Virus record (IMG/VR): IMGVR_UViG_3300044912_000288
Span: 1-20,033 of that record
Origin: a virus
Length of the DNA: 20,033 nucleotides
Reading direction: 5' to 3' (one strand)
Numbering within the stretch: position 1 is the stretch's first letter; each line of letters begins with the position of its first letter. A program made the translations under genes and the position numbers. The notes below the pieces were generated by a model. It was not told the origin of the DNA and searched no databases. It saw only the letters and a program-made list of their open reading frames with translations. Shown piece by piece: positions 463 to 18,801 of the stretch.

Positions 463-1152
463 TTACTCCTGTTTTAATTTGCAATTGTCGTTATGCCAAC
501 GGGTAAAGTTTCCAGCCGAAATCTCCCTATTACAATGTGGGCATTTTATAGTTGGCATAATATTTCCTTTATTTTTACCCAACATTGATTGTCTTGATTT
601 TTCACGTGACTCCTGAGATTTAACCAAAGAAACACCATACATATTGTTCCCTTCTCCTTTTCTGTCTTCGCTCATTTTCGCCTTTGTTTCCGGGGTATGG
701 TGAAATAATCCCGTTTTTCCTTTATTTGGTGAAGTTTTACCCGTTAAAGTTTTACTAATTTTCGCTTTGCTCTCTGGGGTGTGATTGTTTTTTCCATTCG
801 ATTTCCTAGTTTTACTGCCTTTTTCGTATATGTCTTTTCTGCCAGTCGTGTTCCAATTTTTGTTTGAATGTGTGTTGAACAAAATCCCAGATTTTAGATA
901 CATGTCAATCATCTCATTCTCTAATTCTTTCACTTCATCAATAGTTCCTTCAAAGACAATCTCCCATTCAAATTCGTTGAAAATTGGTTTCACTTTATTA
1001 CAACTTGTAAAATAATAATGTCCAAAATCCTTTTCAGCTGGTCTGTTTAGTTTTAAATTATGCCACCTCGCACCAACATATATTTTGTCAGTTAGCGGGT
1101 GATAACCCATATAAACATAGGGTTTTACGTCTTGATAAATAGTATCAGTCAT
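463..1152 (-). CDS. Free-standing GIY-YIG homing endonuclease with NUMOD3 motifs
   Basis: A 229-residue predicted site-specific endonuclease. Residues 12-29 carry a degenerate GIY-YIG core (V-Y-M at 13-15, Y-V-G at 25-27, R29). Acidic residues around 75-80 (E-L-E-N-E) are candidates for the metal-binding Glu. Residues about 119-170 hold NUMOD3-type DNA-binding repeats (H-T-P-E-S-K-A-K-I-S and H-T-P-E-T-K-A-K-M-S, with G-K-T-S-P-N-K-G-K between). The C terminus has a C-x2-C...H-x3-C finger (C204, C207, H220, C224), common in phage GIY-YIG enzymes. The ATG at 1152 has a CGGAG ribosome binding site. It sits between complete tail genes, not in an intron, so it is probably mobile by cutting a nearby site in phages lacking it. 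All domains look intact. Confidence 0.9.
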   Translation of the reverse strand: MTDTIYQDVKPYVYMGYHPLTDKIYVGARWHNLKLNRPAEKDFGHYYFTSCNKVKPIFNEFEWEIVFEGTIDEVKELENEMIDMYLKSGILFNTHSNKNWNTTGRKDIYEKGSKTRKSNGKNNHTPESKAKISKTLTGKTSPNKGKTGLFHHTPETKAKMSEDRKGEGNNMYGVSLVKSQESREKSRQSMLGKNKGNIMPTIKCPHCNREISAGNFTRWHNDNCKLKQE

Positions 1153-12964: not shown

Positions 12965-14299
12965 TTAAAGAGTGATTACGTCTTTGATTGCTACGAATGC
13001 TTCAAGACGTTTAATCATGAAGTCCCACCAGCTATATGAACGGATGAAGACAAGGCTATTATCAGCGCCTGTAGTTTCATCTACTTTTACGACTAGGTTA
13101 TTCCACTGTCCAACGAAGAACTCGCTGAAATCGCCCGCGATAATTGGAGATAAACCTGTTCCAGTTCCTTTGGTCAAAGTAGCAGGAACATTGTTTGAAA
13201 CAGCGACTGGTTTGCCAAGCAATGAATCAGCAGTAACACCTAATGGGATGATATATCCGCTATTAGTATTAGCAGAATCATTCAAAGTATTACCAAGGGT
13301 TAGCATAGTGCCACGGTTAGTAAGCCATCTTAAACCTGCATCCGAAATGTTATTATCAGAAAGGATTTTTTGAAGTTTTAGCAAGTTAGTTCTGCTAGGA
13401 GCAGCACCATTAGTTCCACCTGCCACAACTTGACCACCAGTGATAGCTGCTAACAACGAAGTTAATTCGCCAACAGTTTGAGAAGGAGCAAGTAACATTT
13501 GGTCAAGTTTCAAACCAATTGCTTCAAAGATTTGTTTGTAGATGATTGCTTCAGTTGAAGGAGTGGTTTGGAATTGAGCCATCAAAGATAGCGCAGATTT
13601 AGTAACCATTTGTTTTGGTGAAGCATTTTTGGTTGTAGTGGTAACACTTTCTGAATCACCAATAGCGCCAGTTTCCCCAACCATCCAAGCGGTTGCTTTT
13701 GAAGTTACAACTGGGAATAATTGATTATCTTTCAAACCAGTTTCACGATGAACAGGTAATTGAGATAAAGCAGTTTTTGACCAAAGCACGTCAATCAAAT
13801 CTTGAGGACGATAATTTTCAGCAACCAAATTGCCTACTGAACCTGCAGTGCCTACGGTTGAAATAGAATCAGCACGTTGATTCAAATCAACAGTGAAGGT
13901 TCTTTTGTTCCATGATTGACCTGTTCCGCGAACGCCTTCTTGTGACATTTCTTTTTCAAAACCAGCGTTAGTCCAGTCTTCATCGATAGCCGCACGTAAT
14001 GCTTTGGCTACGTTGAATACGTCTTTTTCACGAGTATGAACTGCAGGCGCACTTTGTCTAACAGCATCCACCGGAGTTTTGTTGATTTCGATATCAGCTG
14101 AACGTTTTTCAACTTCAGTTAATACTTCACTTCTGATTTCGTCAAATGATTTATCGGAAGCAATAAACTCTGCAGCACGAGCAGACATATTCCATTTGCC
14201 GCATAAGTCGTTAATTGAAACGGCGCGTTGGGTTGCTTCTTTGATAGCAGCAGAACGAACTTCTGCTTCATTAATTTGTTTTGATTCTTGGATTTCCAT
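12965..14299 (-). CDS. Possible internally started capsid chain (delta domain + capsid)
   Basis: In-frame ATG at 14299-14297 (codon 176 of the fusion), 10 bases after an AAGGA at 14314-14310. The start falls exactly between the protease domain and the charged delta-like domain, so the product would be 444 residues, a normal unprocessed HK97-type capsid length. Making mostly protease-free subunits would suit an icosahedral shell needing hundreds of capsid copies. This is analogous to lambda Nu3 starting inside C. Unproven; the AAGGA could be coincidental. Confidence 0.5.
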   Translation of the reverse strand: MEIQESKQINEAEVRSAAIKEATQRAVSINDLCGKWNMSARAAEFIASDKSFDEIRSEVLTEVEKRSADIEINKTPVDAVRQSAPAVHTREKDVFNVAKALRAAIDEDWTNAGFEKEMSQEGVRGTGQSWNKRTFTVDLNQRADSISTVGTAGSVGNLVAENYRPQDLIDVLWSKTALSQLPVHRETGLKDNQLFPVVTSKATAWMVGETGAIGDSESVTTTTKNASPKQMVTKSALSLMAQFQTTPSTEAIIYKQIFEAIGLKLDQMLLAPSQTVGELTSLLAAITGGQVVAGGTNGAAPSRTNLLKLQKILSDNNISDAGLRWLTNRGTMLTLGNTLNDSANTNSGYIIPLGVTADSLLGKPVAVSNNVPATLTKGTGTGLSPIIAGDFSEFFVGQWNNLVVKVDETTGADNSLVFIRSYSWWDFMIKRLEAFVAIKDVITL

Positions 14300-14824
14300 T
14301 TTCTTAGATTCCTTGGTTGGGTTGGTAATTGGTTCGATTGTTCTATTTAGTCCTACGGTGGTATCTGCAGGAACGCTTACTGAAGAAATCTCATACGGCA
14401 TAAACTTGTAACGAAATGCCTTGATTCCTTCGATTTGCCCTACCAAAGTTTCATCCCAACGGGTATAGCCAACTGATATATTTGGTCGAACGCCCGACTT
14501 AATGTCGTTAATAATTCCTTGCTTTTCTTCGTCAGACGAAAACTTGATTAATGCTTTTCCTTTTGTTCCTTCTATCCAGCCACGAAGCACTGTTCCTATA
14601 TGCGCTTCAGGGTCGGATGTGTTATGTTCGAGAATAAATGGAACTGCATTTGCTTCGATACGACTAAAATCAGCGTCATTTGGAGAATGAGATAAGATTT
14701 CCCATCCTGTTGCTCTCAAATAAGGAGTTTCACTTGAGAACGATATTTCTATTGTGTTGTCATCAGGGTTGTATGTATCGGCTTCAAATTCTGCTGACCG
14801 AGAAAAAGATTCTCTGTCTTGCAT
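12965..14824 (-). CDS. Prohead protease-major capsid protein fusion (HK97-type)
   Basis: A 619-residue fusion. Residues about 1-165 are an HK97-type prohead protease: F-I-L-E-H-N with H67 and G-x-V-L at 77-80, then N-I-S-V-G-Y with S117 as likely nucleophile, and I-S-S-V-S-V-P-A-D at 146-154. Residues about 176-260 are a charged, helical delta/scaffold-like domain. The rest is an HK97-fold capsid protein (Q-D-L-I-D-V-L-W-S-K-T-A-L-S near 340; W-W-D-F-M-I-K-R-L-E-A at the end). It follows the portal gene, where lambda has separate C, Nu3, D and E genes. The start has AAGGA seven bases upstream. A second ribosome binding site and ATG at 14299 could give capsid subunits without the protease. Self-processing is inferred from the family. 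Confidence 0.93.
   Translation of the reverse strand: MQDRESFSRSAEFEADTYNPDDNTIEISFSSETPYLRATGWEILSHSPNDADFSRIEANAVPFILEHNTSDPEAHIGTVLRGWIEGTKGKALIKFSSDEEKQGIINDIKSGVRPNISVGYTRWDETLVGQIEGIKAFRYKFMPYEISSVSVPADTTVGLNRTIEPITNPTKESKKMEIQESKQINEAEVRSAAIKEATQRAVSINDLCGKWNMSARAAEFIASDKSFDEIRSEVLTEVEKRSADIEINKTPVDAVRQSAPAVHTREKDVFNVAKALRAAIDEDWTNAGFEKEMSQEGVRGTGQSWNKRTFTVDLNQRADSISTVGTAGSVGNLVAENYRPQDLIDVLWSKTALSQLPVHRETGLKDNQLFPVVTSKATAWMVGETGAIGDSESVTTTTKNASPKQMVTKSALSLMAQFQTTPSTEAIIYKQIFEAIGLKLDQMLLAPSQTVGELTSLLAAITGGQVVAGGTNGAAPSRTNLLKLQKILSDNNISDAGLRWLTNRGTMLTLGNTLNDSANTNSGYIIPLGVTADSLLGKPVAVSNNVPATLTKGTGTGLSPIIAGDFSEFFVGQWNNLVVKVDETTGADNSLVFIRSYSWWDFMIKRLEAFVAIKDVITL
14310..14314 (-). promoter_or_regulatory. 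Internal AAGGA ribosome binding site in the capsid fusion gene
   Basis: Minus-strand AAGGA, the same core used by most genes in this window, 10 bases before an in-frame ATG at 14299. It lies in the linker coding for N-P-T-K-E-S-K-K-M. Spacing is a little long but within the range used here (the N-like and tape measure genes use 12-13). Confidence 0.5.
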
Positions 14825-14862
14825 AATTATTTCCTTTTTAGATTTTCATAATTTTCACCAAT

Positions 14863-16929: not shown

Positions 16930-18801
16930 TTAATTTGACTTCAAGTTACCCCAATTCGCATACTTGCTAGGTTTATTAGGGATAACCGCTGTTGAACTAT
17001 TTATCGGATTTTCAACTGGTGCTTTTTCTTCACTTTTGATTAAATCTACTTGTTTTTTGATGTTATATACCGCGTTTTTCTTATCAACATTCTTGAGTAA
17101 ATCTTTTGCTGCTAATCCATAAACAAAAGTATCAAGCATTTCGTTTGCAACACCACTTCCTTTACGTTTTTCAAAATGCGCATATGTTCTACCACGTTTA
17201 TCTGTGGTTATGATTCTTGATTCGGATTGAGTTAATTGTTGAAAGTAATCGTCGTTTTGGTCGATACTAAAATGAATATAACCCGATTTAGAAGTATCTT
17301 TAATCGCCAGTGAATTGAATATAAACTCTTTGTAGATATCAACACCAACAACATAAAACTGCTGCCTGTGCAAATTACGAGATAAAGTTAATGAAGCACG
17401 TAATCCTTCTTTACCCTTACTTGCGAAGATGTTAAGTTTCTTATGACGATTAGCCGCAGCATAAACTATCTTTGTGTTATACCCGCTGTCAATCAATCCA
17501 GATTTTAGATATAACTGAATACCATCTTGTCTGATATAAGTCGTCTTTGAATAAAGCTGATTTACAAACTCGTCATATACTTCTATTTCGCTTGTATCAC
17601 CTGGATAAACCAATGTGTGAATAACATATATTGAATCATTTTCAGTATGACCTAATACCTGTGCTTCAATACGGTCACCTTGAACGTCAGCTCCAAACGT
17701 AAGTAATATCACATCATTTGGAATTGAATTGATTGAATAATCTTCACGTCTTTCAATTAATTCGTTAGTATCAGCAAGGGTTTCTCCAACCTCTTCATAA
17801 GGTTGCCCTAAAATCGTGTTATAAAATGGACCTAGTTTTGAAGGTAAGCCATCACACTTAATGTATTCGTTTGCAATAAAGGCTAACGAAACGAAAGGGG
17901 ACGAGAAGGCATTCGTATGATATGAATAATCCCGTGCGGTTGGATTACGCGGAATCCATACACCTCGGTTTGCTGCTCTCCAACGTTCAACATCATTCAT
18001 TCCTGAACCACAATGAGGGCAATGCAGCAAAGCAGTATCTGGGTCGTTATTAACCCATTTCAAATGACTAAGTTCGGGATAAAAGTGCTCATCACAATGA
18101 ACGCATTGAAACTCAAATACGTGTTGGGTTCCTGCAAGGAATAACTCTTCAATCTTTGACTTTCCTTTTACAACCGGCGTTGATACCCAAATATGTTTAT
18201 AGTTGTGATAAGTAAGGGTTCGACGTGAAGCAATTTCAACTGGACTTCCTTCGCCTTTGGCATTCACTGCCCATCTATCAATTTCGTCACCAACGACAAC
18301 GCGAATTGGTTTTGAAGCCAGACCTGATGGGCTATTCGAACCTTGAAGCGACCAAAATCCTCCAGGGAACTCCTTATAGTTGATTGTGTTTTGCTTGTTC
18401 TTATATTGGTCGATTCCAAAGATTCTTCTAAGAACAGGTGTGCATTCAATCTGTTTGGATATTCGTTCTTTGGAAAAGGCTGATGCTGCATCCAAAGTTG
18501 GCTGGATAATCATAATTGGGCAAGGTTCATAATCCGCGTAATACTGCAAAACCGAAAGGAGGGTTTCTGATTTCGCGGTCTGAGAACTAAACATCAAGGT
18601 AATGCTATGCACGTCATGACGGGAAATAGTGCGGAGGACTTCTTCGATATAACGGGTGCGGCTAGTTCTATAACGTCCGGGTTCAGCGTTGCCTTGTGCT
18701 AAGTATCGAAAGTTATTCGCATACTCACATAAATCCATTACAACTTTTGGTTTGAGGTGTTCCCTCGCTACATCTTTGATTATTTCAAATGCATTACTCA
18801 A
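16930..18801 (-). CDS. terL: Terminase large subunit, GpA family
   Basis: A 623-residue packaging ATPase-nuclease of the lambda gpA family (lambda gpA is 641). ATPase: a deviant Walker A S-Q-T-A-K-S-E at about 73-79, and Walker B V-V-V-G-D-E-I-D near 168-175 (D172, E173). Two Cys pairs, C233/C236 and C261/C264, probably bind zinc, as is common in the family. Nuclease: F-G-A-D-V-Q-G-D near 369-376 and L-I-D-S-G near 436-440 carry the likely acidic metal ligands. The start is a TTG at 18801 with AAGGA five bases upstream; the next ATG would be codon 22. It overlaps the small subunit by eight bases, so the two are probably made together. Confidence 0.95.
   Translation of the reverse strand: MSNAFEIIKDVAREHLKPKVVMDLCEYANNFRYLAQGNAEPGRYRTSRTRYIEEVLRTISRHDVHSITLMFSSQTAKSETLLSVLQYYADYEPCPIMIIQPTLDAASAFSKERISKQIECTPVLRRIFGIDQYKNKQNTINYKEFPGGFWSLQGSNSPSGLASKPIRVVVGDEIDRWAVNAKGEGSPVEIASRRTLTYHNYKHIWVSTPVVKGKSKIEELFLAGTQHVFEFQCVHCDEHFYPELSHLKWVNNDPDTALLHCPHCGSGMNDVERWRAANRGVWIPRNPTARDYSYHTNAFSSPFVSLAFIANEYIKCDGLPSKLGPFYNTILGQPYEEVGETLADTNELIERREDYSINSIPNDVILLTFGADVQGDRIEAQVLGHTENDSIYVIHTLVYPGDTSEIEVYDEFVNQLYSKTTYIRQDGIQLYLKSGLIDSGYNTKIVYAAANRHKKLNIFASKGKEGLRASLTLSRNLHRQQFYVVGVDIYKEFIFNSLAIKDTSKSGYIHFSIDQNDDYFQQLTQSESRIITTDKRGRTYAHFEKRKGSGVANEMLDTFVYGLAAKDLLKNVDKKNAVYNIKKQVDLIKSEEKAPVENPINSSTAVIPNKPSKYANWGNLKSN

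Follow-up and report, generated by a model that had tools for sequence, protein, structure and literature searches.

Introduction

Phage HK97 encodes its prohead protease (gp4) and its capsid protein (gp5) in two separate genes, in which the parts follow the order protease, delta domain and HK97-fold capsid. Nested head genes are also known. The C and Nu3 proteins of phage lambda are read in one frame, with an internal in-frame start after the protease domain, and the two head proteins co-assemble; the shorter of them is the scaffold, and the lambda capsid protein E is encoded by a separate gene. A related arrangement occurs in the herpesviruses (UL26/UL26.5), where a protease is fused to the assembly protein and a protease-less form, produced from its own transcript, is present in excess.

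Fusions of a prohead protease with the capsid protein itself are already known (NF045541, PHROG 617; PMC7302621). Fusions of protease, scaffold and capsid in actinobacteriophage clusters EE, AN, AX, FE, CW, DM and RRH1 are reported as unusual in small-genome phages, and the passages of that report that deal with the fusion describe no internal start (PMC7302621). The head of the Dinoroseobacter phage vB_DshS-R4C contains 415 copies of its subunit, and the passages on its capsid mention neither a protease part nor cleavage nor an internal start (PMC10276861). The R4C major capsid protein is, like the protein studied here, a member of the same fusion family. A search of a literature collection with few subscription papers turned up no description of an internal start in such fusions. 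Databases label such genes as encoding a single protein, either "major capsid protein" or "protease/MCP fusion".

Organization of the locus and of the fusion protein

The window, that is, the whole stretch of 20,033 nucleotides analysed here, is a virus contig whose minus strand carries genes for terminase, portal, the protease-capsid fusion and head-tail joining, as well as a contractile-tail module. A homing endonuclease gene (NUMOD3 motif, PHROG 314; 463-1152, minus strand) lies among the tail genes. The large terminase gene at 18801 (minus strand) has an apparent TTG start behind a good Shine-Dalgarno (SD) sequence, AAAAGGAATTAC.

The fusion gene (12965..14824, minus strand) encodes an HK97-type (S78/U35-like) prohead protease joined to an HK97-fold major capsid protein, in total 619 amino acids and 67.5 kDa. 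Its start is preceded by a ribosome binding site (AAAAAGGAAATAATT-ATG; 14825..14860, minus strand) with an anti-SD pairing energy of -5.6 kcal/mol. The protein matches the profile of PHROG 617 (major head protein, fused type) over its full length (residues 17-616 of 619, E 7.6e-73), and residues 334-614 match PF05065 (Phage_capsid, HK97 fold) with 71 bits, above the gathering cut-off of 24.2. The match to NCBIfam NF045541 (prohead protease/MCP fusion) covers residues 18-260 only, at 133 bits against a curated cut-off of 525, and by this NCBI cut-off the protein is a relative of that family and not a member. At E 0.001 the window protein has no match to PF04586 (Peptidase_S78); this family is matched by two aligned relatives (L009, L107) and by the separate protease of FP_Epona (L102). 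Residues H67, S117, E145 and D154 of the protease part, putatively of catalytic type, are invariant across an alignment of 43 sequences.

An AlphaFold2 model built from 43 relatives, with six rows from annotated records left out, comprises a beta-rich protease domain (residues about 5-152; 14368..14812, minus strand; pLDDT 80-90), a disordered linker (residues 156-182; 14279..14359, minus strand; pLDDT <50) that varies in length and sequence among relatives, helices at residues 186-300 and a capsid fold from about residue 309. In the PDB, the capsid of roseophage R4C (8gta) matches the model best; the next matches are further HK97-fold capsids, among them that of HK97.

A candidate internal start at the seam

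The sequence-only reading had placed an AAGGA and an in-frame ATG at codon 176, between the protease and the delta-like and capsid regions, and the coordinates, the spacer and the modelled linker all agree with this. The AAGGA (14310..14314, minus strand) spans the Lys-Glu codons AAG GAA and is separated by a 10-nt spacer, ATCTAAGAAA, from the in-frame ATG of M176 (codon 176 of 619; 14297..14299, minus strand). M176 lies inside the disordered linker, directly before the delta-like helices; because the modelled order of protease, linker, helices and capsid places it there, we refer to this position as the seam. Initiation at M176 would give a protease-free capsid precursor of delta-like helices and capsid (12965..14299, minus strand). 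The sizes of about 68 and 48 kDa and the short chain of 444 residues suggested earlier correspond to computed masses of 67.5 and 47.9 kDa.

The predicted pairing of the internal site with the 16S tail (-5.4 kcal/mol) is close to that of the gene's own start (-5.6) and similar to that of most neighbouring genes, and no in-frame ATG of the gene other than M176 has a clear SD. Judged from the window sequence alone, the strength of the internal SD is not beyond chance (-5.4 kcal/mol, where synonymous recoding gives -2.1 +/- 2.1; p about 0.21).

Conservation of the signal across the fusion family

Close relatives of the window gene keep both AAGGA and ATG, in two pairs at 85-89% amino acid identity (L002/L003, L017/L018) and in others at 54-58% (L004/L019, L005), and those that keep AAGGA use the minority Lys codon AAG every time. 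In far relatives (22-30% identity) the linker differs in length and sequence, the seam methionine is retained, and an SD stands at the standard distance in most. These SDs (AAGGAG, GGAGG, GAGG and others) encode different residues and occur in all three codon phases, and the residues that flank the seam methionine are not conserved.

Family statistics were computed on 77 relatives that are pairwise less than 60% identical. All 77 representatives have a seam methionine: the distance from the protease end to an ATG is at most 60 codons, and at most 45 in 74 of the 77. SD and ATG together occur in 80.5% of the linkers; windows of equal size from other parts of these genes have the pair in 13.5% of cases, and the two other reading frames have it in 9% and 0%. 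The share with an SD is unchanged when the first linker ATG is picked blind to the SD, and an SD-like stretch precedes 14.8% of the non-Met codon positions of the same linkers. Only the stretch about 6-15 nt ahead of the ATG shows the signal, which reaches -5.4 there versus -0.7 in controls. It also exceeds random synonymous recoding (z about -6.9 for the family), so the SD is not a by-product of the encoded amino acids. Three relatives that seemed to lack the methionine (L113, L269, L270) turned out to have longer linkers, with SD and ATG in L113 and L270 and a methionine behind a weak SD in L269.

Conservation among relatives had been set beforehand as the test on which an internal start could fail, and the signal persists down to about 23% amino acid identity. 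Together, these comparisons of sequence strongly support that a capsid chain free of the protease is genuinely started at the seam; in the window gene it would have the 444 residues first proposed.

Two further kinds of signal were considered and not counted as evidence. At the seam the mRNA is less structured than in the remainder of the gene (mean z +2.0) but not less than in composition-matched shuffles (z -0.2), so that base composition explains the difference. Synonymous codon conservation near the methionine, in pairs 55-92% identical, is only mildly raised and is pseudo-replicated.

Other fusion types and split relatives

The same arrangement recurs in fusions with an unrelated protease. 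Protease-capsid fusions of the ClpP type (L311-L313 and the fused members of L342-L421) have a different protease fold, as seen in L311, which matches PF00574 and PF25209, and all 16 representatives have SD and ATG in the linker, against a background of 8%. The actinobacteriophage fusions reported previously (PMC7302621) follow the same fusion idea as the window gene. Seven small-genome fusions were examined here (L341, L422-L427), mostly from actinobacterial phages; their hosts are Rhodococcus, Gordonia, Arthrobacter and Pseudomonas. Six of the seven, those of RRH1, GMA5, Rahul, Schiebs, BlueFeather and the Pseudomonas phage Hadban, have SD and ATG at the seam, whereas a seam start is missing from SallySpecial (L425).

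Protease and capsid are encoded by separate genes in FP_Epona, and in the split-gene relatives L103 and L105 a stop, GGAGG and ATG occupy the seam position. The predicted short product equals the separate MCP gene of L103 and L105. As the stop, SD and ATG of the split relatives lie in the same place, the internal start of the fusion matches the point where the capsid gene of these relatives begins. We consider it likely that phage fusions of prohead protease and capsid, whether of S78 or ClpP type, generally keep the capsid ribosome binding site within the frame to start a protease-free capsid chain, as a rule reached by convergent evolution; the genes now annotated as single would then be nested pairs.

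A third kind of fusion (L286, L289, L290), of about 800 amino acids with the capsid domain last, has SD and ATG before a delta-like region. It was left uncounted because these GC-rich genes hold many SD-like sites.

Proposed function of the nested gene

We propose, with a probability of roughly 0.86, that the fusion gene is a nested in-frame pair that encodes a protease-delta-capsid chain and a protease-free capsid precursor, which co-assemble and thereby lower the dosage of protease. Ribosomes initiating at 14824 would produce the 619-residue chain, and ribosomes that bind the AAGGA of the linker would initiate at M176 and produce a delta-capsid chain equivalent to the one that other HK97-type phages encode in a separate capsid gene. 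Long and short chains could then join one prohead through their common delta-like and capsid parts, and the fusion chain would carry its own protease into the prohead. The protease may subsequently cut the capsid domain free of everything N-terminal to it. The internal start would thus hold the protease below one copy per subunit.

Compared with HK97, the order of parts is the same, and the internal start would yield a gp5-like product from a fused gene. The layout resembles that of lambda C/Nu3, whereas the shorter chain predicted here is no scaffold but the capsid protein together with a delta-like part. In contrast to herpesvirus UL26/UL26.5, the short form would arise from an internal ribosome binding site and would be the shell protein.

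In R4C, the internal SD is strong (-9.5), and the solved mature subunit (PDB 8gta) consists of residues 362-629 only of a 629-residue reading frame. We infer that two chains are made and co-assembled and that their purpose concerns protease dosage or room inside the prohead. Dosage control seems the most plausible purpose of the internal start because 415 protease domains inside would burden the head heavily and needlessly.

Alternative explanations

Several other accounts of the seam signal were weighed. An AAGGA and an ATG could have arisen by chance in the Lys/Glu-rich linker of a single phage, as the single-gene p of about 0.21 would allow, but conservation across the family rules this out, and we give chance almost no weight. 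Nor does it seem at all probable that Met-Glu and the charged linker form a protease recognition site, with the SD as a by-product of Lys, Glu and Gly codons. The linkers are indeed charged, and the mature R4C subunit starts far downstream, so a precursor does get cleaved; such a site would, however, leave the excess over synonymous recoding (z -6.9) unexplained. The residues around the methionine are also not conserved, the SD keeps a fixed distance from the ATG and seldom occurs at other codon positions in these linkers, and unrelated proteases carry the same DNA signal.

The seam could also be a fossil of the fusion event, in which the SD and ATG of once separate protease and capsid genes remain in place, unused and unselected. 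Exactly such a layout is found in the split relatives L103 and L105, from which it follows that the internal start could be inherited. An unused signal is nevertheless expected to decay, and here the SD persists in fusions less than 60% identical despite changing residues and codon phases, with an excess at the synonymous level. In the window's own clade AAGGA survives at 54-58% identity, written with the less common Lys codon, and the ClpP-type fusions have the same signal independently of any kinship with this family. We therefore regard a fossil as unlikely, if somewhat less so than a recognition site.

Ratio of the two predicted products

The earlier proposal that few protease-bearing and many protease-free chains are made is not borne out by the SDs, which are about equal in strength at the two starts (-5.6 and -5.4 in the window gene). 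Among 13 annotated relatives, mean SD pairing is -5.5 at the full-length start and -5.7 at the internal start (p = 0.89). A stronger SD at the internal start was thus found neither in the window gene nor in these relatives. Equal SD strengths imply that the ratio of long to short chains need not be strongly skewed.

This equality also fits a real internal start with a role other than the setting of a ratio: it could act as a safeguard, so that most capsid chains stay competent for assembly, or serve in timing. Nothing decisive speaks against such a role, which shares the main claim of an internal start; we hold it as a tentative option, less probable than dosage control through a nested pair.

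Consequences for related phages

If the seam start is used, a second gene is hidden in a large and diverse class of phages and the composition of their proheads is mis-stated. Its use would also solve the puzzle of how a shell is assembled from protease-bearing subunits alone. A short chain would then be predicted in much-studied isolates, namely VP882, phiHAP-1, R4C, the E. coli jilinviruses, and Arthrobacter and Gordonia phages.

Exceptions and variant fusions

About one fifth of the 77 representatives are without a good SD. Most of the SD-less cases belong to a cyanophage-like group, S-CBS1 (L012), S-LBS1 (L014), L130, L150, L176 and L190, in which the methionine is kept and the SD is absent. 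S-CBS1 has strong SDs at other genes, and host habit alone therefore does not account for the missing SD at its seam.

In several relatives (L026, L051, L052, L065, L172 and others) the reading frame is longer, at 800-1000 amino acids, with an extra stretch ahead of the protease. The capsid encoded on a contig from Yoonia (L118) has a protease part that is shortened and appears degenerate, and Met-Ser-Asp-Asn is still present at its seam.
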